In this document: in pieces, positions 3,417 to 53,609 of the stretch
How the letters are laid out: every line of letters starts with the position of its first letter
Position numbering within the stretch: the first letter of the stretch is position 1
From: Owenia fusiformis
Taxonomy: Eukaryota; Annelida; Polychaeta; Sabellida; Oweniidae
Reading direction: 5' to 3'
NCBI GenBank assembly: GCA_903813345.2
Contig: CAIIXF020000001.1
Coordinates: 27,579,915-27,643,914 of the forward strand
DNA length: 64,000 nt
Notes under the pieces: generated by a model
Database searches by the model: none
What the model saw: only the letters and a program-made list of their open reading frames with translations
What the model was told of the DNA's origin: nothing
Made by a program: the position numbers and the translations under genes

Positions 3417-6400
3417 GTTAGTGTTTCACCTTGCATAAAAATTGAGAAATGTGAATAACATTGCATCATCTTCCCATTTCCAACAATCAGTTTGAAACCT
3501 TTTTGAATTTTTCCCATATTTTTAAAGATTCGCAGTTCAAACAGTTCACATTTTAAACTATTCACATTTTTCACATCTCCAAAGTTTCATATTTTAAACA
3601 GGGCCTACACCTTTAGTGATGAAAATCACATTATATAGATGTCTCCACCTTCCTGTATTTAAGCAGAAAGTGGAGGCTAATACTCTGCTCAATAGTCAGG
3701 AATATTTAGGTGAAAATATTTCAAAAATATATAGAAGCAATTTTAAGGTGGATTTCAAAACTTCATACCATTCTTTTGAAAACCTGAAGTGGCACCAAGC
3801 AATCCATTGACTTTTTCACCAAAAATCCAAGATGGCCGCCACGATGTATCGAAAAATCATAAAAATTGACTAAAGTTGTAATTTAATAAGTCAAAATAGT
3901 TGTATACTGATCAAACATGACTAATAATAGTACCTATTAGATGTTCATATGCAGTTAAAGTCACTGGATCATTTTTGTATGAAAACTGGAGTCCCACAAG
4001 GCTCAATTTTATGTCCGCTACTTTTTTTGTCTAATGACTTGCATTGACCATGGCATTTGCACATAGCAGTGGATACTTATCCATTTTTGAAATGTAAGCA
4101 CCCAGGACCACATTTCACCGTGCACCCATACTTGACCAATGCTTGGCATGCCTTGGCTGCTTGAGGAAGGGATGTCAATAGTGGCACCAGTAGAGACATG
4201 TCATACTTCCAGCCCCATGTTGTGAACTCCTATACCAATTTTAGATGGAGATTGTACAGTTGCCCTCAAACAATACCACCTTGGTTAGCAAGTTCTTAAG
4301 ATTTTCTGAGCAAGGCCTCCTTTTGTTGGTTGTATTCTGTCAATGACTGTATGGCCGCCACAGAACATTAGTCTTCGTGCTGCATTGATATCTATCTGGT
4401 TGCTGGTTCGATCATATAATAGAACAGTAAAACAGTCTAGGGACTGAATGGTCTGAATTTACAAAACCAGGTTTGTTGTAAGCATTTGTGCCACTCTTTT
4501 GTAGAAAAGCTGGAGTAACTTCCTTGAACACATTCCATAGCTTGAAGGCAGATCCTTTGCTATGGCCAAAGAATGATGCAGTTAATATAATTTAATATCT
4601 GTAATTTTTGAGAGGTTCGAAGGCAATCCAGATTGACACTTATTGGGCCTTAATTATTATTATTATATCTTGGTTACCGCCATATTTGGCGAGCAATAGC
4701 TCATTGGTATATTCTGTACTTTACATATTTTACATTCGAAGACAGAGCCAGAAACCCCTCCTTGGAGGAGCCCTGTGTTCTTTTGTGTGCACAGGTACAC
4801 AGACATACAGGTACACACCACAGCCTTTTATACGAGTCGCGAACCACTCAGTCAAACACCCAGAATTACATGACGCACAAACAAACTTGTCTGAACCGGG
4901 AATCGAACCCGGAGCCAAGCGATATTGGTAACCTTGACTCTGCCACTGAGCCATAGCGGGTGGACTAATGCTGCAGCCATGGCAAGAACTACTACATCAG
5001 TATCTCCACTTCTGATTATGAAGTCTTTTTTTCCCTCTGAGGTCATCTGTTTTACATGAACAAAGAGTCTAGTGTCAACTTCTTCATGAGTACAAGGTTC
5101 AATCATTGCTGTATCTGGCAAGTGAGGAAATCACTGAACAGATTCCACAATAGTAGTTATCATTTGCTTGTCATTTACATCAACCTCAAAAATAGAGTTG
5201 GCCAGGAATGCTAACAGCTCAGTCTTGTTCTGGCCATTTCTTAGAAAGCCTAGCCAATTCTTGGGCATCGGATTCTCTGCATAACCCATCCAGTGCCACG
5301 ATGAATCCTTGTCAGGGACTTCCCACTGTTTTGTTGGTAGACATCCCAGATAGCATCTAATCTTGAAACACCTTCCATAAGCTGCCTTAACTTGGGATGA
5401 GACATTGGTAGCATATTCTTGGAAGTTGGTAGCCACACCAGGACGCATCACATAGACCAGAAGGGTGCCAACTATTAAAATTGCATCTGCAGGTTTTTTC
5501 CAATACTTCAGATCCATCTGGCTTAGCTTCTCAACATTTAAGTAAGTCTGCTTCTGTTGTAGGTCTCATGGCTCCATGCTTAGCTAGGGATGGCCTGAAC
5601 TCATGTTTTTCATGTTTGAAAAACTCAGACATGTCAACGTGTCTTGATTGGCATCCCGTCATCCCTAGCTAAGCACAGAGCCATGTGACCTACGACAGAC
5701 TTACTTAAATGTCTAGAAACTGGTCCTTTCATCCCAAGTTAAGGTAGCTTATGGAAGGTGTTCCTAGATGTTGTCTGGAATGTTTACCTACAAAACAGTG
5801 ACAAGTCCCTAACAAGGATTCATTGTGGCACTGGTACTAGAAGGATAGTTTATGCAGAGAATGTGATGCCTAAGAATTGCCCAGCTTTTCTAACAATCAA
5901 CGGAACAAGACTAGGCTGTTTGCATTCCTGCTCTATGTCTGAGTTTGATGTTAATGACAAGCAAATGATAACTTCTATTGGAGAATCTATTCAGTGCTTT
6001 CCTCAATTGCCAGATACAGCAATGATTGGACCTTGTACTCATGAAGAAACTGACACAAGACTCTTTGTTCATATAAAACATGACCTCAGAGGGTAAAATA
6101 CTTCACAATCAAAAGTTGAGATACTGATGTACTTGCTCTTACCATGGCTGCAGCATTTAAGGGCGTAATAAGTGTCAATCTGGATTGTCTTCAGACCTCT
6201 CAAAAATTACAGGTATTAAATTATATTATATTAGCTTCACCATTCTTTGGCCATAGCAAAGAATACCACCAACAAAAGGAGGCCTTGCTCAGAAAATCTT
6301 AAGAACTTGCTAACCAAGGTGGTATTGTTTGAAGGCAACTATACAATCTCCATCTAAAATTGGTATAGGAGTTCACAACATTGGGCTGGAAGTGTGACAT

Positions 6401-9400
6401 GTCTCTACTGGTGCCACTTTTGACATCCCTTCCTCAAGCAGCCAAGGCATGCCAAGCATTGGTAAAGTATGGGTGCAAGGTGAAATGTGGTCCTGGGTGC
6501 ACACATTACAAAAATGGATAAGTATCCACTGCTATGTGCAAATGCCATGGTCAATGCAAATCATTAGACATAAAAAGTAGCGGACATAAAATTGAGCCTT
6601 GTGGGACTCCAGTTTTTATACAAAAATGATCCAATGAATTTAAATGCATATGAACAACTTATAGTAGTGGTCGGACTCGCCAGAAAATCTCCACTCGAGT
6701 GGGCCATGAAAAACCACGATTATATTCGCGATTTGACTTAGTTGAGTTACTTCCGGTTTCAGTTTCCCAATTAGCGGCAGAATTCATCAATTTGATCAAG
6801 TCTTTCAAGTGTCTCTATACTTTTTATTGTCTAAATCGTATTGCACATCCCTATAGATCGTTAAAGTTCACCCCTAGTCCCCTATAGATAGTAAAACTTA
6901 CCGGATAAGTAGTGAAAACAAACTTCGTCAATCCAGAAAGTTCCAGGATGCACCGCGGTAGACAAATTTTAAAATTCCCGGCTGTTGGATATTCCCAGAA
7001 TGCATCAAAGCGGAAATGAAACTTTTGCATAAAAATAACGAACGCAGAATAAAATCCAAGTATGTTTGTCTTCCGCACATGGCATTAAATAGAAAATAAG
7101 TTGTATTCTATACAGATAAAGCAGAATATTACAACTATAAGCATGGAAATAGCGAATAGGAGAGATGAATCGCGAGTCAAGGTAAGGTGAAAACGAGTGA
7201 AAAATATTTTTTTGGTAGAAATTTCAAATCGTGAGTTCAAGTTTTCAACTCGATCAATTGATTTTTAGGACAAATGCGAGTAAAACTCGAGTACACGAGT
7301 CAGTCTTCCAACCACTAACTTATAGGTACTATTATTAGTCATGTTTGATCAGTATACAACTATTTTGACTTATTAAATTACAACTTTAGTCAATTTTTAT
7401 GATTTTTCGATACACTGTGGTGGCCATCTTGGATTTTTGGTGAAAAAGTCAATGGATTGCTTGGTGCCACTTCAGGTTCTCAAAAGGATGGTATGAAGGT
7501 TTGAAATCCACTTTAAGATTGCTTCTATATATTTTTGAAATATTCTGTGAACTTATCTCCTATTCAAACCCGACTACAAGGAGTATAGCCGGGTGTGAAA
7601 TTGTCAATTACAATAAAGTGTTACAAGGTGATGTTTTTGATAACAACCCACCTACACATTATTCTATCCTTTCTATGGTTAATTTTTGATCTATTTGACT
7701 TCAGCGGATTAAGTAGTTTACATTGTCTCATAAATCAGTTTCCACAGTTTGAAATGTATATCCTTAAATGAGTGAATATATTCTCAGTGACAAATTCTTT
7801 CATTTGTTTCCTACGGTATTAATGTAAAAATAATCCATTTCATATAATGTCCTTGTAATTAGACCTGCCTCTAGAAATGTGCAGATATTACAATAAGTCC
7901 ATCTTGGTGAAGTGTGTCAATGATAGACGTCATTGAGTTCTTCTCTGCAGGGTGTTTTATAATGGCTATAGACATATAGGTCAGATTTGTGTCCCACAAT
8001 TGAATGTGAAGGACCTTATTTAAGACTTTTTTTTACCTTTAAAGGGGTGGTAGGGAACATATTGCAAATGATATAATTTTTGTTATATTTAATTGAAAGT
8101 ATAGTTTTTATACATTAGTGAAAAATGAAGCATTTTCTTAGACAGCAGATATTTTAACATAACTTCCAATGCAAAAGTAATTGTTCAGAATAATAATTCT
8201 TTTATTATTGTCTTTTCACAATTTGCCTTGAGTGCAATAAATGGAATATTTGAATACAATAATTATTTTGAAATAGAACACTACCCTTCAAGCTATTTTG
8301 AATATCAAATGACACTAATGTTTATCTTGGACTTTAAAGTTGACACAACAAACAATACTATGAGCACAATAAGTCAAAATAAAGAATGTACAGTGTACTT
8401 TGGAATTGAAAATACCCATTCAAATACATCAGATAGATCATTATAAGTACAGGAGTCTTTTGAAGAACTACTGTTAAATCATTGCTGGCCAAAGCTATTT
8501 TTGGAAGTTTTCTGCTGGCAATTTTGATGGAAAACTAAGCAAAATCGCATGTTTTTACATTAGCATAAAATAGTCTGTATCAACACCCTATGCGCTAAGT
8601 TATATGCCATTTATGAAGCCAATGACAAAATACTTCAATTGCACCCTACCAGGTTCCCCAAGTGACCACTAGAATATTTGGTAAGATAACTGGTACAGAT
8701 TATATGACAAAATATACTGGACAGCACCCCGAGATATCTCGGGGTTAGTCACATACGATTATGATGTCATAGACGAAATATCTCGGGTTTGGTCAGCAAT
8801 TAGTTGAAAGAATGAAAATCAAGATTGAAAATGATCTGATTATGAGCTGTGCATTACTTACAGAATTGATGTTAATTGTTCCAGTGTAGGTGTGTCAAGG
8901 CATACTTTTGACAATGAATAAAATAAGCAGGGCTTGTAAAAAGTTTTCAAAATTTAAGTTATAGGGTGTTCAACTTATTCGGGTCAGGTGTTGTATTCTC
9001 AGGGAATATCCTTAAAGAGAAACTAAACCAATAGCCTGAAGCTACTTTGTTATTGTCATAGAAATTAAGTGATTTCTGATTTATATCAAGAGCACTTCAA
9101 TCCTTCATATTATTTCTAATAAATATGATAATTGGACACATTTTATGAGCTCATTTTTAGATTTATACACTTTTCTGTCATGTTCAATAACAAGTGCTAT
9201 TCTATTTGTTTCCTTTTACCCCTACTTACACACTTCTTTGTTTAATTCTAATTCTTGTTTGTAAATCTCACAAAAAATTCATGTCAGGTTATCAAGTACT
9301 ACAATGAGTGAAAGTAGAAAACAATGTATGAAAGTATAGCTTCTGGGAAGAGTAATTGTAATGAATGTACAGTATTTATATTTACAATTCATTTAGGAAA

Positions 9401-18400: not shown

Positions 18401-21400
18401 ATTTTTTATCCCCTTATTCACAAACAACCAAGAGGCAAGTAAACATTATCGTCCTTTGTTAAATGTTATCGTAAGTTTAACTTAAAGACAGATGATAATA
18501 TTCATGCGATTTACGTAAAAAAGTGATATGTCGATATATCCTTATTTTCACTTAGACTTATAAATCACCAATTTTTGTAGTCATATATCAAGGGACTTAT
18601 AACTAATGCACTTGACATGAGCACTTTTCAAATTAGCAAGGTCATATGTTGAAGATACAAATGCAAGGTTATCATGAGCAGTATGAAGTCTTGTGATATT
18701 TGTTAGAGGCGACGCTTCCTGTTTTTTAATTGGTTTTTTGATTGCTTTACAATTGCACATTTGATGCAATCGTCTTCGAAAAGTTGGATGAAAGATACAA
18801 TAAAGATAGAAATTGACCGTTGAGTTGAAAACTAAAAGACTTTCCTTGATGCCCAAAAATGGAATCAAAATGTTGTCTGGGACATAGAATTCATTGTTGC
18901 TTCCAATAATTGCTGATATAAAGTCTGGTGTTTGACAAATGATTACAACTGTAATCATGATGACAAGGTTTAAGGTGATGTTTGTGTTATGATTTGAATG
19001 CCTTCCAGCTGTCCCTGTCTGCCCCACAGCTGTCCTGGCTTGACTCACAGCTATCCCTGTCTGCCTTACAGCTGTCCCTGTCTGCCTTACAGCTGTTACT
19101 GTTTGACTCACATCTGTCCCTGTTTGTCTCACAGCTGTCCCTGTATCATGCACCATGCATGTCAATGTGCGTTGTAATTTCTTTGATTTTTTAATTTCAT
19201 GCACCAGTTTTATATTCAGGATAATCATTGTTATAATAGGGATTGAAAATAGAAATATAAATGCCAGAATAATATGGTAGATGAACCTGTAAAGGTCTTC
19301 ATTCCAGCCATTCAAAGTGACTTCCCCTGAAAGATGAGACACAAATGTGGCATTTGGTAATCCGCCTGAATTAAATGCTACATATTGATAATGGATCCAT
19401 CTAGGAATGTTAAATAACACGGCTATTACAGATATCACCACCACAGTTCGCTTAGCGTTGGTATTTGTGCACATTCTATAGGCCTTAAAAGGTCTTGAAA
19501 CAATTATAAATCGATCAACCGTGACAGCTGTAGCCATCCAAATAGTGCCAGTCTGTGCTGTCCAACCTACTGGTAAAACATAGGCTATGATATAAGCACC
19601 CAAATCATAATACGACTTTAACGATCCTGTGTATGGATACACTGATCTCAATACTGTGTACAGTAAAGTATAGATTAGAAACACAATATCAAAAACTGCC
19701 AATGCTTGTAATATAATACAGTTTGAGTTCCGTTTTGATTTTTGGAGCACTATTATAATTAATATATTCCCGATAAATCCGAACAGGCAAAATAATCCAT
19801 TAATGTAGACATTGAGAATGTAATTGAATAAAGCATAGTCGTTTGTTGGAGTTGTCGCAAATGTTGTATTTAATGACTCCATTGTAGGTGTCAGATATGA
19901 CATATTTGATGTCATCATTAATGTTGATGTCAGATCCGTGTTATTTGATGTCAACATACCTGGCTCAAGCAATAGCTAAAATCCCTCAATGTTCCCAAGA
20001 TCAATGTAAATCCAGATTAATTATTATTTTCTGTTATACTCTGTAATTGCGACAGGCTTTAATAGCTATTAATGTCAGATCTGAGATTCTCCGAAGTTTC
20101 ACTAAGTATTATTGGCAGAGTGGCTAGTTGTAATTGTTTCAAAGGATTTCCTATATTTCACTCTCTATCACAAATCAACCTCTCCTCAATTAGTGAAGAT
20201 GGATAGATTCGAAGCAGCTCTAGGTATTTTCATTTGTTCTTGGAAATGTTATCATATCTTCCCCTCTGGCTTCATTATACTGCATGCATGTTTCACTCTT
20301 ATTCCCTTGTCTATTGAATAATGTGAAATTATTTTGTCATTTGACCAGTGGCATCCTATTATCTTTCATCATAAATAATTTTGTGCAATCTTGAAAATAA
20401 TAAATTTAGTTAATTATCACACTGCTCTTTGTGAGCATAATTGTATCATTATGTGAGTTCTGGTCAAGATACTTAACGCGCCTTTAAGTCTTTTTACAGC
20501 AAAAAGTAAAAGTACATACAAGCTATCATCATCACCTGACAATTATTTACAATTATATAAATTGCAATGCAATATAACTCCAAAATGTCAAAACTCCCTA
20601 CAATTATTTGTTCAGTATGTTGTTCATTTATTACAAGGTTAATTAATATTTTTAGCCAAATAAGCATTGCTTTTTATGTTCATGTAGAGTATAGATATGG
20701 CCGTGAGAGTCGTACATGTAAAATTATTAATATAAAATTAATATAAATAAATATTGAGCCAATTAACACAAAACACAATACCTTGGAAAATAATGGCTAA
20801 TTTAAGTTAATTAGCTACAAGAGTTTACACTTTGACATAACTGTTAATTAGCTCAATTGGATATATTATAATACCATCTCCAACTCATCTTCTTGGGCGA
20901 AAATAAATCTCCAACTGGTGGTGTAAGCTGGGGAAGGAGGTGAGGGAAAAGAATCGAAATGTATAACTTACATTGATGTTAATGGATTTTGTACGCACCT
21001 AGGGAGAAAACCCTCCAACTACAATCCTATCGATATCTCGTCTGAAGTCTCATCTCGTACTCTCGAGATCTGAAGCTTGATGTTTCGTTCAGTGTAACTT
21101 ACCAGAAACATTTACCTGGGATAACCGGGGAATGGTCTTCTTAGGGCTTGTTCATACCTAAACCTTAACCGACTCTCACATTGCCATAAATGAAATTATT
21201 GTCAATAATTTGAATATATCATCAATTAACTGTTGTTGGCAGGTCTCCAGCATTCCTATACTTTAAATGTATCTTAACAGTACCTTTTGTACTTCTTTTT
21301 GTCTATTTTAAGTTCTCCAACATTCTTATACTTTCACTGTTTCTTAACAGAACCATTTGTACTTCTTTTTGTCTATTTTAGGTTCTCCAACGTTCTGTTA

Positions 21401-27400: not shown

Positions 27401-30400
27401 TATATGTACTTGTTCCGATCAATCTAATTAAATAGCGCTTTCACCCAATTTATAGCAGCCTAGATTTCACCCAACATTTCTGATGTATTTCAGGTTTGGT
27501 GAGGGGTATACCATCATATTAAGAGTATCTGGCTCCAATCCAATTCTAACTCCTCTAATAAAGAGATTAGAGCAACATTTCCCCGATGCTCTCCTGAAGG
27601 AGAAGCACCACAACATGCTGCAATATCAATTGGGGGAGAAAGGCGACTCACTTGCAAATATATTCTCAACCATGGAGAATCTTAGAGTAGAGTTTAACAT
27701 TGAAGACTATAGTGTTAGTCAAACTACATTGGACCAGGTAAGTGGTTGTTAAATACAGGGTGCACCTTTGAAATACAGGGTGTCCCTTTGTAATACAGGG
27801 TGTCCCTTGATGATACAGGCTATACTTTTGTAATATAAGGTGTCCCTTGGTAATACAGGGTGTTCCTTGGTAAAAGGGATTAACCTTTTTAGAACAATGG
27901 TGTCCATTTGTAATACAGGGTGTCCCTTTGTAATACAATGTGACTGTATCCTTACTTTTGTAATGCAGGGTTTCACATTCTGTTATAATGTGCATATTTT
28001 TATGTGCGTTAGTGAATTTCAACGAATAAGTTGCAAATAAAAAGGTTGAAATTTTTTTTTTATATACATAACAGCTGTAGGTAGATCAGCTACACACAGA
28101 GCTATCACACAGATACATCCTTTATAAAAGTTGAATAATGAATGTTTTTCCAGGTCTTTATAAACTTCGCCAAGAAGCAGTCTGACTTACTGGATGATGA
28201 ACTAGCTGCCCAAGCAGCAGTAGGTGGAGAGTCAGAATCTCAGAGTAATCAAAACAAATCTGGTAAGTTACTTTGTTATTATTGAACTTCCTAATGTATA
28301 GTGATAACCATGCTGCTGTAGTAAATTGCAGAGATCAAATGTGTAAAACAACAACTTAACAGGAATGTAGTTTTGGGGGATTTGACAAAATTGGTACCAG
28401 TACTAATAGGGGCTCATATGGTAGCCAAAGGTGGGCCCGTCAGTGAGCAAATTTGAACCACATTATTTATCTCGGGAAACATGTCAGATTTAATGATTTG
28501 GAACTTTGACGCCCAAAAAGTGACCATTATGGATAGCTTTTCTAGGTTTTATACCCCCCGAGGTTATTTTCGAGGGGGTCTCAACTCTTTCTTAATAACT
28601 TTAAAAATATTAAAGAAATGTGTCTGAAACTTGCAGGGTACCTTCCTGGGGTCAACACATAGCTGTATTGAAAGTTTAGGATTATTTGAAATAATGGTTG
28701 CTATAGCAACCAAGAAAATGTGTTTCCAAACTGGCAATTTACAGCAATTTTGGCCTGTAGCAACCTGGTTGAAGTTAGATATTTTTTCTATTGATGAATT
28801 TTCACATTGTTAATTGGTTTCAAAAACACACTACAACTGTATTCTTTCATTTTATTGCAGATTAGAATTGACACCATGAGTATTAAAGGTCCATAATCAT
28901 ACATGAATGAACCCATCCCCCAAATTCTATAAAAAGTGGGCGTGGCACCAGACATGTACCAGTTTGTAATTCATAAGTTTAAACACCCAATAAATAATGT
29001 TAATATTTATGTTACCATGTTTCCAGTGGTAGTTGAAGAAGTTCTTTTAAAAAACTAGATATATTACCATGGAAACCATATATTTATGTTGCCATAGCAA
29101 CAGAACTTTGGTAATGAAATAGCCAATAATTTGATCGAAGCCCTCATGCATGTGGTTCCATATATACAAAAATCAAATGTCCTGTATCTCTCAAAGATCT
29201 TAAAACCTTCCTGGGGTCAACACAGAGCTGTATTGAAACTTTGGGGTTATTTGGAGTAATGGTTGCTATAGCAACCAAGAAAATGTGTTTCCGAGCTGGA
29301 CAATTTATGGCAATTTGGCCCCACTGCAACTTGGTTGGAGTTTGATATTTTTTCTAGTGATGAATTTTCACATTGATAATTGGTTTCTAAAACACTTCTG
29401 TATTCTTTCATTTTATTGCAGATTAGAATGACACCATTAGTATGAAAGGTCCATAATCATACATGAATGAACCCCCCCCCCTGTCTATAAGAAGTGGGTG
29501 TGGCACCAGACATGTACCACTTTGTAATTCATGAGTATAAAAACCCAATAAATAATGTTGATATTTATGTTACCATGTTTCCAGTGGTAGTTGAAGAAGT
29601 TCTCCTAAAAATATAATCATATAATAAATATATATATATCATGGAAACCATACATTTATGTTGCCATAGAAACAACTTTGGTCTGTTAACGCAAGGCTTA
29701 ATGAAATTATTGTTCATTTGGCAGAATATATATCCTAGTAGTTTACACTCTTTGTAGTTCACATTTGTATGAGCTACTATTATAGTATATCTGACACATC
29801 TCTATTCTATAGTGATACTTTTACATTTGCTTGCAGAACGTGATATGTGATAGGCCCCAGAGTGATGGCACTCAGAAGACTGCATATGATATCAAATAAA
29901 GCTTGAAAAACAGATAAGTAATACAGCATACTATGACTCTGTCATTTAAACAACAGATGAAGCTGTAAAGTTCTTAAACCAGTCTATTTCAGTTCTCCTC
30001 AGTCCTTTGTGAAACTTCACCTATATAATTTTGAAGCTCATATGTGGGTTCTGATTCTTCTGGATCTGTCATAGCTGGCCTCATCACATCAACAAGATCT
30101 TGTCGTAATATGTTTGATGTGCACCAGTCTAGTTCTAGTACACAAGATAAATTATTTTTCAACCCATTCCCTCTGGGAGATGAGAGTTCAGGCTTGAGTT
30201 GCACACAAACTCTTCAATTACAGCCTGTGTTCCAGTTGTAATATTTGTAGATGACCCAATACATTAATTGAATGCATCTTGGTATTTCTGGCTATTTCAT
30301 AGCAGAGTTGGAGGCCTGGTTTTTCCTCGTTGAACAAATGCACTAACACAATAACAACCTGTGAGAATGGTGTATCATCAAGACTAGAAAATCTGTGTCT

Positions 30401-33400
30401 GGGGAATGTACAATAATGTTCTTTGACTGATCAAAACGTCTTCACATGTATTCATCTTGGTGTTTGCTTCTTCTTGTGTTGACAGTAGATTGTTATCAAC
30501 ATATATTTTATTGAATCTATGTATTTGATAGCTGTCAGTTAAGAAATCTACCCTCTCTGACTTCAGTGGTAGCATGTCAAACACTTGCTCTGCCAGTTCT
30601 TCAAATGTGGATAGACGCTGCACTAAGCTGTGATAGATAGCATTACCATCATATATGTAGAATGATTCATCTTTTGCTGGTCTTGAAGGATAATGTTGGA
30701 GATTCTCAAGAGTATTTGGGAGTGTTGCTTTTGCTGCCTTCGCTGGCAGACCATCAGGAGACCCTAGCGCCCATGGCACTGGACTAAGCGGATACTCTAA
30801 AACTTTCTTGTTCTCTTGAGATATAAGAACTAACTGTCAAAAAATATTCCTCTAAACTTGTTGTCAGATGTTTTCAGGATGTCCTTCTCGATTGTCACAA
30901 ATGTCTTCACCTTTATTCTTTTCACTGGATCTTGAAAACTTTTGGTGTCACTCACAAGTCTTTATTCAAATTCCACCTTGCCTCTAGACCTGACATGCAG
31001 TAGGTCCTGATGATAGACAGTAGAGTTGATCATAGCATCTGTCTCAAAGGGGTCTAAAAAGTTACCTATTGCGGCCCTTGCTTTTGAAACACCTTCAGAG
31101 CCTGCTATGTTTACACAGTAGTAGGCATTTGAATTGGTGATAAATCCAATTACCCACACCCTAAGATTTCGCACTCTGATTGATAGTCTGTTCAGTGGTT
31201 TGATCAACTGGCAAATGTAGTGCAGGTACTTGGGACCTGTTAACACTAAACCCAAGGTCTCTCAATAGCCTTTCTTTCTCTTGGTTTGTATGCTTGAGGT
31301 TAGCAAGCATGACATATTGTGCTGTTAGATATATAGCATAGTTGGACTGGTCCATTGCGAAGAATAGTGGACATAGGTCTTGTTGTAGACACTAGACAGA
31401 GTAAGTGGAGGTCAAAATCATTCTCTGCTAGCTTGGATGAATCGTGATATTACATGACAATAACCTCTTGTGAGAGCATGGGGATTGGTAGCTGGCTGAT
31501 AAACTTGTCTAACAAATTCCTTTGTAGCAACTCCAGGAAGATTTTGGGCACTCTGATTGATCTATTATAATGGTTTCCAGTTAGCACACCTTCAAGAGAT
31601 CCACTAGCATATATGCCAGCTTCAATGATGATCTCAGAGAAACCTTGAAACCAAAACCAATGAATCAATAGCCAGAAATACCAAGATGCATTCAATTAAT
31701 GTATTGGGTCATCTACAAATATTACAACTGAAACACAGGCTGTAATTGAAGAGTTTGTGTGCAACACAAGCCTGAACTCTCATCTCCCAGAGGCATTGGG
31801 TTGAAAAATAATTTATCTTGTGTACTAGAACTAGACTGGTGCACATCAAATATATTACGACAAGATCTTGTTGATGTGATGAAGCCAGCTATGACAGATC
31901 CGGAAGAGTCAGAACCCACATAGGAGCTTCAAAATTATATGGGTGAAGTTTCACAAAGGACTGAGGAGAAATGAAATAGACTGGTTTAAGAATTTTGCAG
32001 CTTCATCTGTTGGTTAAATGACAGGGTCATAGTATGCTGTACTACTTATCTCTTTTTCAAGCTTCATTTGATATCATATGCAGTCTTCTGAGTGCCATCA
32101 CTCTGGGGCCTATCACATATCACTTTCTGCAAGCAAATGTAAAAGTATCACTATAGAATAGAGATGTGTCAGATATACTAGATTATCCTACACTTAGTGT
32201 ACTAAATGTATAATAACATGAAAAAATAAATTTGATATTTATTGGCAAAATGAATATCCGGAGGATATCGTTACGATATACTCCGGGCGGAGGATATCGT
32301 GACGATATACTCCGGAAAACCCAATATGCAGAGGATATTGTGACGATATACTCCGCTTGTTAATTTCCCGCCAAATTGACTCTATTTGGCATGAAATTCA
32401 TTTTACAATGATATTATACATTCAGTACACTCCTTGTAAGTGTAGGATAATAAGAACATCCTATGATTTTTTTCAGAATATCATTTTAATCTACTCAGCG
32501 ATATTGATATATGCACTCATTCGCTTCGCTCTCTCGTGCAGATATCAATATCACCTCGTAGATAAAAATGATATTCCTCAAAATCATAGGATACCCTATA
32601 AATAGTAGCTCATACAAATATGAACTACAAAGAATGTAAACTACTAGGATATATATTCAGCCAATACAGTTTACTCATACATTTGTTGTTTTCTCTAAAT
32701 GGCCAAATGAATAGTCAAATGAACAATAATTTCATTAAGCCTTACGTTAACAGACCAAAGTTGTTTCTATGGCAACATAAATGTATGGTTTCCATGATAA
32801 TATATTTATATATGATATTATATATATATATATTTATTATATCATTATATTTTTAGGAGAACTTCTTCAACTACCACTGGTAACATAAATATCAACATTA
32901 TTTATTGGTTTTTTATACTCATGAATTACAATGTGGTACAAGTCTGGTGCCACACCCACTTCTTATAGACGGGGGGGGGGGGGGTGGTGGGTTCATTCAT
33001 GTATGATTATGGACCTTTCATACTAATGGTGTCATTCTAATCTGCAATAAAATGAAAGAATACAGTTGTAGTGTGTTTTAGAAACCAATTATCAATGTGA
33101 AAATTCATCACTAGAAAAAATATCAAACTCCAACCAAGTTGCAGTGGGGCAAAATTGCCATAAATTCTCCAGCTCGGAAACACAGTTTCTTGGTTGCTAT
33201 AGCAACCATTACTCCAAATAATCCCAAAGTTTCAATACAGCTCTGTGTTGACCCCAGGAAGGTTTTGAGATCTTTGAGAGATACAGGACATTTGATTTTT
33301 GTATATATGGAACCACATGCATGAAGGCTTCGATCAAATTATTGGCTATTTCATTACCATAGTTCTGTTGCTATGGCAACATAAATATATGGTTTCCATG

Positions 33401-36400
33401 GCAATATATCTAGTTTTTTAAAAGAACTTCTTCGACTACCACTGGAAACATGGTAACATAAATATCAACATTATTTATTGGGTGTTTAAACTTATGAATT
33501 ACAAACTGGTACATGTCTGGTGCCACGCCCACTTTTTATAGACTTTGGGGGGTGGTTCATTCATGTATGATTATGGACCTTTAATACTAATGGTGTCAAT
33601 TCTAATCTGCAATAAAATGAAAGAATACAGTTGTAGTGTGTTTTTGAAACCAATTAACAATGTGAAAATTCATCAATAGAAAAAATAGCTAACTTCAACC
33701 AGGTTGCTACAGGCCAAAATTGCTGTAAATTGCCAGTTCGGAAACACATTTTCTTGGTTGCTATAGCAACCATTATTTCAAATAATCCTAAACTTTCAAT
33801 ACAGCTATGTGTTGACCCCAGGAAGGTACCCTGCAAGTTTCAGACACATATCTTTAATATTTTTAAAGTTATTAAGAAAGAGTTGAGACCCCCTCGAAAA
33901 TAACATCGGGGGGTATAAAACCTAGAAAAGCTATCCATAATGGTCGCTTTTTGGGCGTCAAAGTTCCAAATCATTAAATCTGACATGTTTCCCGAGATAA
34001 ATAATGTGGTTCAAATTTGCTCACTGACGGGCCCACCTTTGGCTACCATATGAGCCCCTATAAGCTCCCCAAAAGAATCCTGGTATATCTTATCTGATCT
34101 GATATTTTTTTTTCTTTTTATATTTAGTGTTTAGCTTCACTTTGGGACTTGGGAAATTTTCACATTTCTCTTTTCTTCTTTCGCAACTAACACTGGATAA
34201 ACTTTGGTTCTTGCAACTAGTTTGGGTATATTAGTAGAAGCCTTTCTTAAATCAAATGCAAATGTTAAATCAAAAAGCTCAATTAAAATACTGTGTTTTA
34301 TTCCTGTATAGCGCAGTCAACATTTTCACGATTCTGTCGGTCATTTAAAGTCAAATGTAAGTTTTTCAAATTCAAGATTTAGATATGCATGAGTGAAATT
34401 TTCCCTCTAGTTTTTTTTTATTGATGGTATGCTTGATGATATGAACAAAAGAGGTTTCTTAGTCCCCAGTTAAGTTTGTTCCCATTAATTAAGCTTCACA
34501 TATTTATTCACAGTTGAAAATGAATCCTTGGGAAACATTTTTTGATCAGATAGACCTCTTTAGTTTTAGTTTGACCTGTTCTTTCAATCCAACGCTACTA
34601 ATATATGAGTTGATTTAAATAGGCTAATGAAAAGCTTTTTGCTCGGGACTTGATTTCAAGATTAACATCTCTAATTTGCTAAACCTTCTAATAAAATAAA
34701 AAGCGACTAAAGATTCTCTTCTTGACATCTATTTCCACTCATCTTTCTTAAGAATGCCCATAAATGCCTATTCCCATGGCCAAGAGCTTTCATCAAGACA
34801 GAGAAATGTGTTTTATTTGTTCTCATAACATTCACTTAAAAACCAGGAAGTCAATCGGAGAATCTTTGGCAGCATAAAGTGTTATTTTGGCGAATCAGAC
34901 ATTGACAGTAAATGCTCATGGGCTGTAATACTACGCTTCCCATCTCTCCCTATATATTTAGACTGAATCCATCTTGACATAGAAATATGAATAATTAGAA
35001 AGATGGAGGAAAGATAGAGGAAAGGTCTGATGTAAGACAACTTTGAGGTATTGAATGAAGTATTCACTCATTTTGATTGATCTTTTGGACAAATATTTTT
35101 ATCTGACAAAAACATGTGCACTTTATAATAAGTATGTACACACGTCCCAGTTTCACCCTTAAGTTCCATGGAAAACCTTTATATTACAAAAGACTTGTAC
35201 TTGTTCATTGACTTCTGTTGGAAATTGTAAAATCATTTAATTTGGCATGAGTGTCCAAAATGTGAAGGCTTCATTTATACCACAAGTTGAGGATGGGTCA
35301 TAATGCCTGATTGATTAAACAACTAACATTGCTGGTTCAATCTACTTTTTTCTGCACCCTCTCGGGCATGCCATCCAGAAGACGCATCAGTCAGGGTGAG
35401 GTACGGATCTATCAAGGAATCTAATACCGATGACTCACAGGTATTAAATGGATTCTATTTACTGTTACAGCTTTGCTCTAAGTATAAAATTATTCTGCAT
35501 TTTGGCACCTATTTCACGGCTTTTAGCTTGGCACTTCTTAAAACCAAATACTGTACTTCTACTTCATTTGGCAGCTGTCTTAATTTGCCAGATACACCAA
35601 ATCCTCAAAGTCCGCCAAATTAAGTAGCTACCAAATCCCCTTGTAATTTTAGTTACATGTAAATTAGTACCATTAGTGCATTGCAATATTACAGTATATT
35701 GCGCCAAATCTTCACAACATCAAATCTGCCGAAATAAGTTGCACCAAATTAAGTAGATGTACAGAAATAGGCTAGCTGCATGTGTCTTTTGGACAAATTG
35801 TTTATGGAGTACCTTTTACCTTGGAGATATTTTATCTGTGTAATATACTGTAGTTTGCTAGTTTCTCATAATGAAGTCCCAAAGATAACTCTCTTTGGCA
35901 TTATATAATGTGCAATTATGTACCTTTTCAACAAGTTCTGAATTCTGACATCAATATTTGACACTCGTCTTTTTTGAAAAATAAATATCTTTTCATTTCG
36001 TTTCATCTTTCATGGCAAAGATGTTTTTCAAATTGATAGGAATTTCTTTTTCTATGTGCAGTACATTGTTTATCACTAAAATTGGAATCAATGTCATTAT
36101 TCAAATGAATAACCAGTGGGTGTACCTTCAAAATGAAACTGGATGGGTTTTCATTTCAAAGGAAACATACCTGGAATTAAGCCTAACTATGCACTTAATA
36201 TCTGAGGCGTAATTACTAATTGTAAGGCATAGTCTTGTGTTGCCCACGGGACACAAATTAAATTATTTCTCACTAGAATTACCAGTTTTTGTGTCAATAT
36301 ATGCTACAATTACCAGTTGTTGTGTCAATATGTGCTATAATTACCAGTTGTTTTGTCAATATGTACTACAATTACCAGTTGTTGTGTCAATATATGCTAC

Positions 36401-45962: not shown

Positions 45963-46492
45963 CACTGGCGACCCACTCGATTACGCTGGTTACCGAAACG
46001 GTTCGTTTTGGTAACAAAATGTCGGAACGTCGAAGGTACGATTTTTCTCATTTCTTTATTTCACACGTTGTAGGCAGAATTCCCACGACATTTTGTATGA
46101 GTATCATATGTTTAAAAAAATGTACATACAATGTGCGAACAAATAGTTCAGAAGACAACAAAATCGTCGATTTAATTCTTCACTTAAGTTACATAAACGG
46201 TTTTTCGAAAAAAAGTTAAGATCTGCACTTTTAACCCAAACCGTTTATGTAACTTAAGTGAGGAATTAAATTGACGATATATTCTGTTGTCTTCTGAGCT
46301 ATTTTTTCGGCAAACATGAACATTTTCTAAAACATATGATACTGATATACGTCTGTGAGAAAAAAGTCGTGGGGATTCTGCCTACAACGCGTGGAATAAG
46401 GAAAAAAGAAAAATCGTACCTTCAACGTTCCGACATTTTGTTACCAAAACGAACCGTTTCGGTAACCAGCGTAATCGAGTGGATCACCAGTG
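45963..46492. mobile_element. 530-bp near-perfect foldback element, CAC..GTG ends, TATCT target duplication
   Basis: The ends CACTGGCGACCCACTCGATT and AATCGAGTGGATCACCAGTG are inverted, and the arms (to about 46210 and from 46235) pair almost throughout, leaving a loop of about 25 bp. It is flanked by TATCT at 45958-45962 and 46493-46497. An open frame in the left arm is not considered a gene. Confidence 0.87.
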
Positions 46493-46510
46493 TATCTGTC
46501 AATCATCGCG

Positions 46511-46744
46511 AGTAGTTACAGAAACGAGAGTTCTGACACACCTATAACATGGAGTCCTATGGGGAGGGACACGATTTTTCATAGTACCCTCCCTAACATG
46601 GGCTCCAATGGGGAGGGACATCTGTGAGCCTCCCTGAGCTCGGGAGGCACATACGGGGACCCCACCCCTCCCCCCCTCGGCGTGGTGGCGTGTACATATT
46701 TCGGGGATCTCGGCCCCTAGGGGTAACGGACGCCCTACCCCACG
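46511..46744 (+). repeat. Left terminal inverted repeat of the Maverick-like element
   Basis: 234 bp, G+C-rich. Near-identical to the right repeat, and it preserves the empty site for the mariner (CCCCGAAATATGTACACG on the complementary strand). Confidence 0.9.
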
Positions 46745-47186
46745 TCTGTACGTTTACTGTAAGGGATACTATTCGAATTCCCGCCAAAAATAAATCGATA
46801 AACCAGTACGCGTCGTAAATGTCACTACCTTATTTATAAAGTGCGGCCCAGGCGGATTATCGATTACCTATCAACCAGGCGTTTCGTACTCGCGAGGTCT
46901 TATCGTTTTAAGGTCATCCAGCTGTCAGTTTACGAAACAAATTACTCTGGACTGTACTTTAAAGTGCGGACCTAACTCGATAATCGATTATCAATCAACC
47001 ATCCATCAACTTTAATTAGTGTAACGTCCTTCATCGATTTAAGATCATACCGTTTTATGGATGTTATATTTGATTGTGATAAATATTTATTTTGCCAATT
47101 CGTCAACACACTTCTTTTCAAAATACATCAAATAAATACATATTTACATTATAACATTCAAAATTCTTCATTGAATCAGACACAAG

Positions 47187-48288
47187 TTACAAAGGTATTA
47201 AATCGGAATCTTTAACCCACGAATCAAACTTTTTTGGCCAATATTGACAACGCACTAAATGTTCCCGTTGCCCTCGTCTTGTTCGTGTTTTCAAGATTTT
47301 TTCTACTTTCCAAATATCATCTTCATTCGCTTGTACTCTTTGAAGCTCCGATTGGTAAAAAGTACCCTTAATGTCTTCATTTTGAAAATCATTTAAACGA
47401 TATAACGGGAGGCCCTGTCTAATGAAACGTTTCGCTACTTTAAAAATTTCCCCTGTCCAATGCTCGTTGTATTCTCTTGTAAAAACATGTCTCGACTGGG
47501 TAATTCTAACCAAAGCTCCAATGGGAAATTTAAATATATATTTAGACCTAGTTTTAACGACAGCTAATTTTGGGATAGTACATCCGCCACCAAATGGCCA
47601 GTTCATCGTCTTCAGTTACATTTTTAGGAGCCATCTTTATGCTCCTATGCCAGGTGGCGTTATAACTTTTAACAAAATTTTGCAAATTGTCTATATATCT
47701 ATAGTTCTGTTTATATGTCATGAACCTCATCATTTTCGTCTTCAATGTCTTTATAAGGCGCTCGGAAAAGTTGGCTTTGGGCGTATTTTCCGTAACAAAA
47801 TGGCGTACTCCCCATCGAGCCAGCAATGTCTGTACGACCCTCGCGCGAAATTCTTGACCTTTATCTGTTCTAATGACATCTGGTTGACGCTGCCCTTCTT
47901 TGAAGATGTCATCAAAGGCCTCTGCAACAGCTTTACCCGTCTTGTTAGGTAGAGGCTTAACCCAGGCAAAACGGGACATGATGTCAATGACGACTAGGAT
48001 AAATTTCGTATTGTCATTCTCTGTTGACCAAGTAGACATATCCATGAGATCAGCATCCCATTGTTCATCAATATGTGAAACATATACTTTATTCCGAGTA
48101 AATTGTCTCTTATAAGGTCTCTGTAGGCCATAAGCTTCTTGATTGTCCAGCCATTTCTTTATCTGATAACGGGACAGCTGGTATTTCCCATCATTTAGTA
48201 CAGCTCTATAGAGTTTGTCTGGTCCAGCAAAGGCTCCAGAATTTCGACTGTCAAAGTATAATTTCTTTAGATAGTCTTGATATGCCAT
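47187..48288 (-). pseudogene. Maverick-type DDE integrase with chromodomain, one frameshift
   Basis: Retroviral-type integrases insert element DNA into the genome. The first frame (48288-47554, 244 aa) has the N-terminal SGAFAGPDKLYRAV block, then a core with Asp80 (DADLMD), Asp142 (RTDKGQEF) and Glu176 (ANFSERLIKTLK); 33 residues separate the last two. The second frame (47606-47187) holds KFPIGALVRI and a chromodomain ending WPKKFDSWVKDSDLIPL. The two overlap in different frames, and the domain order is normal for this family, so a single one-base shift near 47570 splits one gene. It may be a mutation, a sequencing error or, less likely, translational frameshifting. The closest kin I recognise is the transposon-derived F54H12.3-type integrase. 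Confidence 0.85.
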
Positions 48289-48347
48289 CTTACACTGTCG
48301 GAATCTAACTCCTTAATGACGATCTCTCTTTAAATTGCTAATATTTA

Positions 48348-49943
48348 TCACTCAGTGCTTGATTCAACAGCCTCGTTTTCGGATTCACTCTGTTCTTCCT
48401 CAGAACTACTTTCCTGGTCTGTATCCTCTATAAAGACCTCATCAAACTTGTGTTTGTTTTTTAAAAGTGTCTTCCTAATGGCTAAGTTCACAGAGACACC
48501 CCTCCTCATCATATTAATTATTGAATCAATTGTATTTCTGTGTAACGCATTGTCTTTTACATCAACCGTTAGCTTGACGAATTGTTTATATCCTTTCATA
48601 AATTCTTCCTTATTCTTCGACAATAGTTTATTATCTGCCTTTTCTACAGCCTCTGTCTTATCCATCCCTCTATCCATATACTCATCCACTTTACGTCGGT
48701 GGTCTTCCTCATTCTGTCTTAAAGACCACTTCTTTAAGAATGCAAATGTTTCATTTGCTTTCAAATCACCATCATCGTCATCAACGTCATTGTCTTTGTC
48801 TTGAGGAATCTTCTCCTCAATATTTTGGGTAGATTGGGTCCTCATCCTCTTGGGTAGTGGTCCCTGATCTTGACACCACTTTTTTATATGCCTCTGTAAG
48901 TCGTGAATGCTATCAAATACTAAACCACAGTCATCACAGGATACCATGTTGTCTTCTCGAAATTCACGTTCCAAGTAAGGGTAGTTCTTAACATCACTAC
49001 TATTTATAAATGTTGTCGTCGGAAAGTCGACTTCTGAAATACCCTGTCTTTCAAGTAAGTGTTTTGAATCATTCATTGGTTCCTTGAAGTTGCGGGAATC
49101 GTGATGAGTTTCAAATTCAACTTCACTTTTAGTAAAGGCATTTGGTTTCAATCTGCTGTGCTCCGAAGTTTCTTGCTTCAGATCAAGAAGCAGGTAACCA
49201 TAGGGTCGACTAGTTGCGTTGGTATATGCTCTGACCAACTTGTTTCCATTTCCGGGGTACATCTGCCTCGATAAGAATGCCACCTGTTGGCGATCTCTCG
49301 CGTTATTAAACAGTATCATATAGTGAGAGTTTAAGCTCATCGATCTATTCATTTTTCCTTGATGATACATATTCTGGAGTAGGCATATCACAGACAGATT
49401 TCGATGGTGACTGCCTTTGCTATAGAGATCACATATCCGTTGATCATTTGTTGCCTCATTCATAAGATCATCGAGAAGCATCAAAGTAGGAACTGAAGTG
49501 TCAAGGTATCTTGAATCATCAATATCCTCTGGTATTCCCTTCACAAATTCCAAATGTGGGTATTTTCTTAGCTCTTCGTAGGCAGGCTGCCATTGACCAT
49601 AACACCAGATGATTCTTCTAGGAATTGGGGATATATACCGTTCAACATTTTTGATCAAGTGCTTCATAAGCCAGGTCTTCCCCGACGATGTTGGTCCGGC
49701 TGAAAATACAAAACAAAACAAAAAATATTTTTTAATAAATTGACATGCTCTCTTTCTATATTTAGAAACCTATCAGACTTTTAATTTCAACATGTCCATG
49801 CCTATACCTGCTATCATAGTAAACGGATGTTTCAGCATAACATCAGACTGATGCATTTTTTCTCCATGAAACTTATTCATATGCCTTGATAGGTTATCAC
49901 CTCTCGTAAAATTCACACTACACTCAGAACAATTGAAAGACAT
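48348..49943 (-). CDS. Zinc-finger P-loop ATPase of the Maverick-like element, two exons, 495 aa
   Basis: Exon 1 is 49943-49808 and exon 2 is 49699-48348 (stop). The 108-bp intron has GTATAG..TTTTCAG ends and joins inside an Ala codon. Joining it places a C2H2 finger (C5, C8, H21, H26) and HPFTMIA directly before Walker A, GPTSSGKT (residues 47-54). Walker B is TLMLLDDLM (about 118-126), then LLQN (152-155). A second, C2HC-type finger spans about 300-321. The tail is acidic, rich in Ser and Glu, and probably partly disordered. The fold is consistent with HerA/FtsK-type packaging ATPases of Mavericks, but that role is inferred. The frame is intact, unlike the integrase. It lies 59 bp upstream of the integrase ATG on the same strand. 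Confidence 0.83.
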
Positions 49944-50106
49944 GTTGTCTGTTCAAGATCTATCAGTAAAATGACTCAAAACATGGACAACTTAAAATAT
50001 ATAAGAATATTCTAATGTGCAGTATTTTGATTGGTTCAAAATGTGTCAATTAAGATCAATTCTAAACATAAACAGGCATTTATGACATTATAAACTATTG
50101 AATATT

Positions 50107-50445
50107 AAAGTAAAGGGAGGGGACGAGGTTTGGAAGATGGAGAAGAGACAGGAGGAGGTTGGGTGGAAGTAGGAGGAGGTATGAGGTAAGGAGGAGGTAG
50201 GGAGGAGGTGGGAGGAGGTAAGGAAGAGGTTCGAGGAGGTAAGGAGGAGGTAATGATGAGGTAGGGAGGAGGTAGGAGGAGGTGGGAGGAGGTAAGGAGG
50301 AAGCGGGAGGAGGTAGAGAGGAGGTGGGAGAAGGTAAGGAAGAGGTAAGGAGGATATAGGGAGGAGGTAATGATGAGGTAGGGAGGAGGCGGGGGGAGGT
50401 AAGGAGGAGGTAAGGAGGAAGTGGGAGGAGGTAGGGAAAAGATGG
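50107..50445. repeat. Polypurine GGAGGAGGT repeat
   Basis: About 330 bp of AGGAGGTAAGGAGGAGGTGG-like sequence with almost no pyrimidine except single T residues. It lies upstream of the ATPase gene, inside the Maverick-like element. Such tracts can form triplex or G-quadruplex structures. Confidence 0.9.
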
Positions 50446-50446
50446 C

Positions 50447-50650
50447 TAACTTCCGCTTTAAAACCTACCCAGGCCGACTAAAAGATGCCTCACTTCCGCT
50501 ATGATGTCACCCTCTTGCCCAGACAGATGCAAAATGGCTGACTTCCTGCTAGAAAGCTTCAAAATGGCCGACTTCCGGTTAAATGGCTGACTTCCGGGCT
50601 GACTTCCGGTCAAGTGGCTGACTTTCTGTCAAAATGGCTAACTTCCGGAA
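50447..50650 (-). promoter_or_regulatory. Array of ETS-like (CCGGAAGT) and YY1-like (GCCATTTT) motifs
   Basis: The + strand shows eight ACTTCC-type cores (ACTTCCGG, ACTTCCGC, ACTTCCTG and one decayed ACTTTCTG), most preceded by ATGGCTG or ATGGCCG. On the - strand, toward the ATPase start, this reads as alternating CCGGAAGT and GCCATTTT. These two words are the binding sites of ETS factors and YY1 in TATA-less animal promoters. A promoter role is an inference from position and motif. Confidence 0.6.
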
Positions 50651-50706
50651 CGTATAGTCGTGGGGTAGGGCGTCCGTTACCCCTAGGGGCCGAGATCCCC
50701 GAAATA

Positions 50707-52645
50707 CCAGGTCGTTCAATAAGTTCTCATAATTTTGCTCTCATTTTAAGAGTTTTTTATATTTTTCCATGAAAATTTCACAGACGATGCAGAATGTATC
50801 TGTGTAACAACCCTGCAAAAATTAAGTTTTAATTCTAATGGTCGTGAAAATGGCGGTTGTTATAGTAACATGAAAAATGGGTAGGCGGGGCAGATTATTT
50901 GACGTCATAGTGGCATATAATTCAGTTCAACATTGTGGAGAGTAACAAGTGTTTTAATGTCATGTAGTCCCATTTATCCCATGAAATAGTATGGGGTAAA
51001 TGTTTCTATTCCTACTTTAAATGCTCAAAATAATGTCCATTGGATGCGACACACTTTCGATGACGTTCTACCCAATCCTGGAAGATTTTATGGAATCCAT
51101 CAGGAAATCTAGCTCTGAGAGCATTTTGGACTGCATTCTGCAAATCTTCTGTCGATGCAAATCGAAAACCTCTCAGCTCATCTTTCATTCGGCCAAACAC
51201 GCCAAAGTCGCATGGGGCTTCATCAGGTGAATATGGTGCCTGTGGGAGAACTTCCATTCCGAGTTCTCCTATGGTGTTCAGTACAAGTTCTGCCCGGTGA
51301 CACGGGGCATTATCCTGATGAAATATTCTTGTCGCCAACTCTAGGAGGGGGCGTTTCTTTGAGAAGGCCCGTTTGAGATGCCTCTTGAGAACCTGAAATA
51401 GTCAGTAGGATAGGATACTAATGCCTTTAACATTTGTACTTAACCATTTTTATAGTTCAAATCTGATTTTAAATTTGATTTGATTTAATGTTTTTACTCT
51501 TATATTGATTAATTTATTAATAATGAATAAGCTTACCATTGCATAATAGTCCTTGTTTATTCTCTGACCATCAGGAATTGCATGCGTAAGCAGCACCCCA
51601 GAGCTATCCAAAAACACAATGAACATCACCTTGCCGTCATTTTTGGTCAGTTTTGCCAGGGTTGAAATGGGAGTAGGTGAGTTCTTAGTTCTCCAACCAC
51701 TTGATGCTCTCTTCCCAAGGGGCTCATAATAGCTGACGTACACCTCGTCGCATGTGATAATTCGTTGAAGAAAACTATCCCCTTCATCTTGGTATCGTCT
51801 TAGAAATTCTTGGGAAACCTCAACTCTGCGGGCTCTCTGGTCACTAGTTAACTCCTTTGGCACCCATTTAGCACACATGAGGTTCATTTTAAGCTTCTCT
51901 TTCAGAATGAAGTGTGTTCTACCTATACTAATGTTCACATTCTCACTAAGTTCCCGTACAGAGATGCGGCGATCATCATCTAGAACTGTCTTAACTCTTT
52001 CAACAGCCTTTGGGCTGGTGACTTTTACCGGTCTGCCAGTCCGTTTTTCATCCATCACAGATTTTCTTCCCTCTGAACCAAACCTTTGATACCATTGGTA
52101 TATGGTAGGTGTGCTCATTAACTCCTTTCCATAAATATCTTGAACTGCTTTTATTGTTTCTCCTCTTGATTTCTTGGATAACACACAAAATCTTATCACA
52201 CTACGGATTTGAATTTGAATTTCATCTTGACTTTTCACAAGACCACAGTCAGCTGCCATCTTGGGTCTCTCTATTGAAACCTTTTCTGTGATGTCATACC
52301 TTTTTATGTGATGTCACAGTAATAACTATACTCAGAAAAGTTGCATCTTTCACACTGATGTCAAAACCTGTTTCTATGGTTGCAAATCTTTCAGATAAAA
52401 CATATGACATTTCAAGATGAAATCTAACTACATCCATGGATTTTACGATCAAATAAAGTTGCCCCGCCTACCGATTTTTGACGTTACTATAGCAACCGCC
52501 ATTTCCACAACCATTAGAATTAATACATAATCTTTGCAGAGTTGTTACACAGATACATTCTGCATCGTCTGTGAAATTTTCATGGAAAAATATAAAAAAC
52601 TCTTAAAATGAGAGCAAAATTATGAGAACTTATTGAACGACCTGG
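50707..52645 (-). mobile_element. Mariner transposon, 1939 bp, apparently intact
   Basis: Inverted ends begin CCAGGTCGTTCAATAAGTTC on both sides. The first 105 bp or so are identical and similarity continues for about 190 bp. TA flanks both ends (50705-50706, 52646-52647), and the left terminal repeat of the host element shows the empty target. It carries one complete transposase gene on the - strand. Confidence 0.93.
51012..52259 (-). CDS. Mariner DD34D transposase with one intron, 367 aa
   Basis: Transposases of this family cut and paste DNA between TIRs at TA sites. Exon 1 (52259-51537) encodes the helix-turn-helix region (TIYQWYQRFGSEGRKSV), the GRPVKV linker, WVPKELT and the first catalytic Asp171 (ITCDEVYVSYYEP). 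Exon 2 (51392-51012) encodes Asp268 (FHQDNAPCH) and Asp303 (YSPDEAPCDF), with exactly 34 residues between them. The intron (51536-51393, GTAAGC..TTTCAG) joins in phase 0 after YYAM. The length is normal for mariner and no stop or shift is seen, so the enzyme may be functional. Confidence 0.9.
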
Positions 52646-53609
52646 TATGTACACGCCACCACGCCGAGGGGGGAGGGGTGGGGTCCCCGTATGTGCCTCC
52701 CGAGCTCAGGGAGGCTCACAGATGTCCCTCCCCATTGGAGCCCATGTTAGGGAGGGTACTATGAAAAATCGTGTCCCTCCCCATAGGACTCCATGTTATA
52801 GGTGTGTCAGAACTCTCGTTTCTGTAACTACTATCGCGCACTTTGATGTTCCACTTTATCAATGGTTTGTGGTTTACATTTTTCGAGTGTTTTATACTTT
52901 CCTAGGACTATCTTCTGTGATTTTTCAATGGTCAAAAATATTGTCGAGAGTGGGGCAAAACGGCCCATGGGTGGGGCAAAACGGCCCACCCTCTGTTACA
53001 TGGGTTTTAAAACCAAAATTAATCAATTACAAGACTCGTCCACACACATAATATCTCAGACGTTCAAACCTTTGACAGATAAAGTATTCTTAACCCCTAC
53101 CATAATTCTAGTCATTCGATATGTGTCGGAAGGAATTAAGGTACAAGCCAAATGTTAAAATCGTTATATTTGAAAACCAATTGCTCTTGCACAATAAGAT
53201 TTTTGTATGTTATAACATGTGTGGGCCATTTTGCCCCAAAGACATGTGAATTTTCAAATAGACCTCTTAATTTGCCTAATAGTTGAAGCTTGAAATTTTT
53301 ACAAATAAAAAATAAATGTGCATACTCTATGTAAAATGTTAAATCAGAATCAAAACGATATTCTATCATTTTGTTGCCGGATTTTTTTAGAGATTCTCGT
53401 GGGAGGGGTTATTTACAAAAAGAGGGTGAAAAGTAGAATTACCTCTAAAGCGAGACGCTGCTTGGTTATAATGGGCGGTCGAGAAGGTGGCAGAAATTTC
53501 AAAATTCGATTATGTGACTTTTGAAGAACCATCTTTTTATAGGTTCAAAAGATATTTCGATAGGCCACTTTGCCCCAGACGGCCGTTTTGCCCAATGTTC
53601 CCCTAGTAC

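Follow-up and report, generated by a model that had tools for sequence, protein, structure and literature searches.

A short Maverick-like element of Owenia fusiformis as a component of a probable split Maverick family moved in trans

We analysed a 64,000-nucleotide stretch of the Owenia fusiformis genome (the window; contig CAIIXF020000001.1, positions 27,579,915 to 27,643,914), which contains a Maverick-like element at window positions 46511-52832. This element probably represents type C, the short member of a Maverick family with three components, the others being designated types A and B. It runs AGTAGT...ACTACT and is bordered at both flanks by a perfect 6-bp duplication, ATCGCG, in agreement with the duplication and AG..CT ends reported in a first-pass annotation of the locus. 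The 234-bp terminal repeats with a single indel had also been described correctly, and two mismatches lie just inside them. Comparison of the left and right arms gave 100% identity between 46511-46675 and 52668-52832 and 97% between the inner parts, 46697-46754 and 50649-50706; overall the two arms are 99.5% identical over 188 columns. The element spans 6322 bp, including a nested mariner-like element of 1.94 kb in the right repeat, the transposase of which is spread over two open reading frames (ORFs), one of them recognised by Pfam. Subtraction of the mariner and one TA leaves 4381 bp, which matches the annotated 4.4 kb. Immediately outside, a fold-back element at 45963-46492, with 132-nt arms that are 92% complementary and 266 nt apart, stops 18 bp before the Maverick-like element.

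The gene content of the window element is summarized in the table. The integrase is frameshifted, with the core and the C-terminal part in two overlapping frames, and this copy is therefore unable to make integrase as one ORF. For the ATPase, Pfam alone gives weak matches in which A32 is not listed; its homologues carry PF04665 and zf-C2H2. A motif, HPFTMIAG, upstream of the P-loop is common to the window ATPase, to L019 (type C) and to L009 (type A). The annotated content of an integrase and a zinc-finger ATPase is thus backed by the PF00665 match and by the homologues of the ATPase. The annotated absence of polymerase B (PolB), protease and capsid genes also held, as tblastn with five PolB queries found no PolB in the window, and no capsid, protease or other B-type protein was found in the element, the ATPase paralogue apart.

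Table. Features of the Maverick-like element and its borders, in window coordinates
Feature	Position	Strand	Basis
Left target site duplication, ATCGCG	46505..46510	.	matched at right flank
Left terminal inverted repeat, starts AGTAGT	46511..46754	+	self-alignment and family repeats
Integrase C-terminal part, chromodomain-like	47187..47606	-	Pfam Tudor-knot at cut-off, Chromo below it
Integrase core (rve)	47554..48288	-	Pfam PF00665, E 2.9e-11
Packaging-type (A32/FtsK-like) ATPase with C2H2 finger, main exon	48348..49721	-	homology to A-type protein
Probable upstream ATPase exon with further C2H2 finger, ends HPFTMIAG, 5' limit provisional	49806..49934	-	
GGAGGAGGT-type array, 10-11-bp units, purine-rich, in C-specific stretch upstream of ATPase	50137..50455	+	
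Right terminal repeat, inner piece	50649..50706	-	
Nested mariner-like element in right repeat	50707..52645	-	TA duplications 50705-50706, 52646-52647
Right terminal repeat, outer piece, ends ACTACT	52646..52832	-	
Right target site duplication, ATCGCG	52833..52838	.	matched at left flank

The search for the terminal repeat that the first-pass annotation had proposed was run in part: the 498-Mb genome was searched at the DNA level with the left repeat of the window, 40 of 75 candidate places were scored, and the surroundings of all matched places were read. This yielded 41 repeat matches, all inside 29 elements, and the same terminal repeats flank every element read. Complete repeats of A, B and the other C copies are ~95-98% identical to the window left repeat, with a minimum of 94.8% (L034). 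The two-gene layout is present in 20 of the 29 elements, assigned to type C (the window, L012 and L017-L034), which shows C to be a class of its own that has been amplified, as opposed to a single deletion event. Type A has four copies (L009, L010, L011 and L036; 9.3-10.4 kb) and type B five (L013-L016 and L035; 7.9-10.3 kb). Fifteen C copies measure 4355-4392 bp and the others 3231, 3325, 5827, 5863 and 6322 bp, the three longest (L022, L012 and the window) holding insertions. The annotation had allowed that all other copies might be 15-20 kb long; no 15-20-kb unit occurs among the 29 elements read, which range from 3.2 to 10.4 kb.

Perfect 6-bp duplications border 28 of the 29 elements (the exception is L033), and all 28 are mutually different. 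All 27 elements of one comparison, as well as L035 and L036, have (AGT)2//(ACT)2 ends and terminal repeats that are hundreds of bp long. The length of the repeats and the 28 duplications rule out chance repeats, and an assembly artefact is unlikely given 29 separate loci on 11 contigs. Two copies show additional structure. In L012, the insertion between the integrase and ATPase genes contains a 260-amino acid (aa) ORF (2229-3011, minus strand), which by eye we take to be a retroelement fragment. In the B element L016, the left end is duplicated (101-1778), with 1384 bp of B followed by a second repeat that starts from repeat position 13.

The Maverick gene set is partitioned among the three types. 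Type A encodes an integrase (365 aa), a C2H2-finger ATPase (431 aa) and a putative PolB, recognised through its homologues, in consecutive blocks; with homologues as queries, the PolB blocks of L009 and L011 abut in protein coordinates. The PolB region of L009 is interrupted by four gaps of 82-127 bp, each having GT close to its start and AG close to its end, its ATPase gene contains a similar gap of ~88 bp with GT and AG near the ends, and the ORF breaks of L009 recur in L010 and L011. These gaps are probably spliceosomal introns. Type B encodes a major capsid-type protein (441 aa), an adenain-like protease (Pfam PF00770, above cut-off), an ATPase (223 aa) and further ORFs of 188, 147, 107, 115 and 141 aa, eight in all, which are open without a gap in three of the five copies. 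The 141-aa ORF presumably resembles Maverick minor capsid proteins. The capsid-type protein has 433 homologues, and among the 120 listed are proteins named F54H12.2-like in sea urchin, starfish and lancelet. The fold of one homologue, P0001, is a double jelly-roll close to the capsid proteins of PBCV-1, Sputnik and mavirus, and the identification of the B protein as a putative major capsid protein is based on these homologues and on this fold.

Domain databases were less informative for these proteins. Pfam found the rve integrase on A (L009) and C (window), listed no N-terminal zinc finger at E 0.1 for the integrase ORFs of the window and L009, matched A32 weakly and under the cut-off on the A and B ATPases, and named no PolB in the A ORFs and no capsid in the B ORFs. 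A sequence search of PDB gave no match for the B capsid and weak adenain matches for the B protease (E 0.008 and worse), while NCBIfam and PHROGs returned nothing informative for the family proteins. Scans of viral contigs identified no relatives of the integrase, PolB, ATPase or capsid, and a scan of genome contigs gave two, L039 and L040, the latter with pieces only. The contig L039, labelled a bacterial metagenome-assembled genome, carries at 155-5643 an open 1224-aa PolB-like ORF and an A32-type ATPase close together, and may be a Maverick-like contig filed under a bacterium.

The partition was consistent across the copies read. No integrase was found in the five B elements. B proteins other than the ATPase were found in none of the four A and none of the 20 C elements, so that the major capsid protein and protease, present in B, were found in none of these 24. 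Protein searches for PolB were negative in all five B elements, in both C loci tested and in the window, and nucleotide probes of the polymerase region hit all four A elements and none of the 19 C loci other than the window. The A and B gene sets were never found on one element (0 of 29). Between the interiors of L009 and L014, no DNA match surpassed E 0.014, and the sole protein match was the ATPase. In type C, a single ORF spans the integrase in full in 15 of 20 copies. The components thus share terminal sequences and carry complementary genes, as multipartite viruses do.

Divergence within each type is low, though no clock is known for the host. Whole elements differ by 0.12-0.18% among three A and 0.21-0.28% among three B copies, and 15 C copies differ by a median of 0.21% and a maximum of 2.5%. 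Averaged over all pairs of C copies, the divergence between left and right arms is 2.9%, and because C arms differ by side, the identity of the repeats is a poor clock in this family; dating from the repeat arms was dropped on the same ground. The annotation had called the window copy a complete and recent insertion. Completeness is supported by the perfect duplication, ends and repeats, but recency stands only in part, given the broken integrase, the nested mariner and the poor clock. In almost every other detail the annotation was accurate.

Exchange between the types is also evident. Repeat variants segregate across A, B and C. The 15 standard C copies carry A-like integrase DNA, over the whole compared stretch in L017 and to about column 1600 in the other 14; in L012, L023 and the window, the A-like integrase switches between about columns 900 and 1200. 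That the C integrase region is A-like to differing breakpoints indicates that the types share a compartment. Two elements are cross-type recombinants: in the B element L035, 563 bp of end sequence are of the A/C kind, and in the C element L012, 510 bp are of the A/B kind. Both have perfect duplications, implying that the chimaeras themselves were inserted. The two ends of B are alike for ~520 bp and match the right end of A for ~475 bp.

The C ATPase has a longer history. The window protein is 60% identical to the A-type ATPase over 442 columns, with a nonsynonymous divergence (dN) of 0.25 and a synonymous divergence (dS) of 2.2-2.3, which is saturated. This distance argues for an old gene lineage kept by selection and not for a fresh truncation of A. 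Of the stretch upstream of the C ATPase, just three short pieces close to where the ATPase begins match L009. On these two grounds, we rejected a deletion scar of a standard Maverick in the sense of C being a recent truncation of A; C could still derive from another, unseen full-length lineage.

The shared repeats and duplications, the gene partition in the copies read, the low within-type divergence and the cross-type recombination are likely to reflect a split, trans-mobilised Maverick family in which the gene set is divided among separately inserted A, B and C elements with interchangeable terminal repeats. Typical components would be A at 9.3 kb, B at 8.0 kb and C at 4.37 kb, the last a numerous derivative with integrase and zinc-finger ATPase. 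Integrase from A or C would recognise the common repeats and insert all three types with 6-bp duplications. As B has the same ends and duplications while no integrase was found in it, the simplest explanation is that the integrase of A or C integrates B in trans. By analogy with the Maverick model, the protein-primed-type PolB of A would copy A, B and C from their AGTAGT ends; repeated AGTAGT ends are thought to permit jumping back in protein-primed replication, according to the excerpted text of PMC8097293. The putative capsid of B may package any of the three, a possibility worth testing given that both A and C have kept a packaging-type ATPase that bears signs of past selection. The annotation had suggested that the window element might be moved in trans by full-length relatives. 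Relatives with the same repeats do exist, but those read form two complementary partial classes and are not full-length Mavericks. More tentatively, it is quite possible that the family is a multipartite double-stranded DNA virus-transposon, with replication and virion lobes integrated separately, amplifying together and sharing their ends, and a numerous satellite with its own integrase and packaging-type ATPase riding on both.

Several points weigh against the split-family explanation. With 35 of the 75 candidate places unscored, unread copies, perhaps including a full-length one, remain. Each lobe has its own ATPase, the two being 35% identical over 167 aa, and A plus B is thus not simply one Maverick cut in two. 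C carries an integrase and could move by itself, and the saturated synonymous distance is silent on the kind of element in which its ATPase was selected. In respect of expression, joint packaging and present mobility, the split family is a prediction.

Three other explanations were weighed. It is somewhat unlikely that A and C are an old capsid-free transposon and that B is a once-independent capsid lobe, either a Maverick remnant or a polinton-like virus, which captured A ends and now travels as a passenger without forming a particle. Such piracy of the repeats would fit the intron-like gaps in A and C genes and their lack in the B ORFs, as well as the likeness of both B ends to the right end of A; Polintons without capsid, protease and ATPase are known (9 of 72; PMC4028283), and PolB and rve integrase are missing from most polinton-like viruses (PMC11071308). 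However, all B ORFs are open in most copies, B shows the same low within-type divergence as A and C, and polinton-like viruses carry other replication proteins (PMC11071308), none of which Pfam named in the eight B ORFs. The mechanism of trans movement would stay the same, the difference from a split family being only whether capsids matter. It is unlikely that C is a self-sufficient cut-and-paste transposon for which integrase alone is enough, with the repeats common to A and B reflecting history and not dependence. C is the most numerous class, usually has its integrase spanned by one ORF, and has precedent in integrase-type cut-and-paste DNA transposons such as Ginger (PMC2836005), but this explanation leaves B unexplained, makes the selected packaging-type ATPase superfluous and does not fit the shared compartment implied by the integrase breakpoints. 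Finally, it is very unlikely that the types are deletion or recombination products of an unsplit, still active ~17-kb Maverick that lies outside the copies read and supplies everything, since, although 35 of the 75 candidate places were unscored and one A plus one B (17,305 bp) approaches the 16,862 +/- 1,678 bp of intact vertebrate Mavericks (Barreat and Katzourakis 2021, PMC8097293), none of the elements read is unsplit, the A and B ATPases and interiors are as dissimilar as described, and GT/AG gaps mark the A polymerase and ATPase genes as opposed to the gapless ORFs of B.

Other features of the window lie apart from the element. A large inverted structure at 28403-34064 has 521- and 483-nt arms at 98% identity and inner 519-nt arms at 96%, and the region 3715-7544 holds nested inverted repeats, 405 and 226 nt long, with 95-96% identity. 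A 463-aa ORF on the minus strand (18581-19972) contains a run of repeated TAVRQTG-type units and, judged by eye, presumably has the look of a seven-helix receptor.

The view of Mavericks as both viruses and transposons stems from the presence of all the genes on a single element. In this family the two roles lie on different elements, with little divergence between copies and open ORFs in many of them, which could allow dependence, cheating and packaging to be examined one at a time. A split family would offer a natural example of how one DNA virus genome could turn multipartite, and of satellites in Maverick families. Surveys for 15-20-kb units may miss split families or score their parts as fossils. 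Among the open-access titles and abstract openings listed, a scope that leaves most subscription papers outside, there was no report of a split or segmented Maverick.

The family can be compared with known systems as these are described in excerpts of the cited papers. Ginger shares a Gypsy-integrase-like transposase that may suffice to move C, but has a signature N-terminal zinc finger that is absent from Polinton integrases (PMC2836005) and was not found here by Pfam; C in addition keeps a packaging-type ATPase and Maverick ends. Bidnaviridae likewise divide their genes over two segments and have a Polinton-derived PolB (PMC4061559), but they package single-stranded DNA in separate particles with a parvovirus-type capsid, whereas the present family has a predicted double jelly-roll capsid and chromosomal insertion. 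Type B resembles polinton-like viruses in having capsid genes without PolB or rve integrase (PMC11071308, PMC12220804). Their replication proteins are of other kinds, and B, in which Pfam named none of these, has Maverick ends; trans compensation of broken genes is mentioned for these viruses as unlikely but possible (PMC11071308, PMC12220804). Type A, in which no capsid or protease was found, resembles the capsid-free Polintons, for which the excerpts of PMC4028283 describe no matching capsid-only partner; those elements lack an ATPase too, while A and C keep one. The closest likeness is to Maverick/Polinton elements themselves (PMC8097293; Krupovic et al. 2014, PMC4028283), which share the 6-bp duplications, (AGT)2//(ACT)2 ends and long repeats and, across the whole family, the rve integrase, PolB, A32-type ATPase, adenain-like protease and double jelly-roll capsid. 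The genes here are spread over separate insertions of 3.2-10.4 kb and not one of ~17 kb, and the family has two ATPases and probable introns in the polymerase and ATPase genes, in contrast to the intronless state described for intact vertebrate Mavericks (PMC8097293). In the latter, the polymerase is grouped with the ATPase in one module and the integrase with the capsid genes in a second (PMC8097293); as integrase is on the polymerase side here, the split departs from that exact border. Taken singly, no type is a Maverick by definition, but as a set the three are one in all except size and unity.

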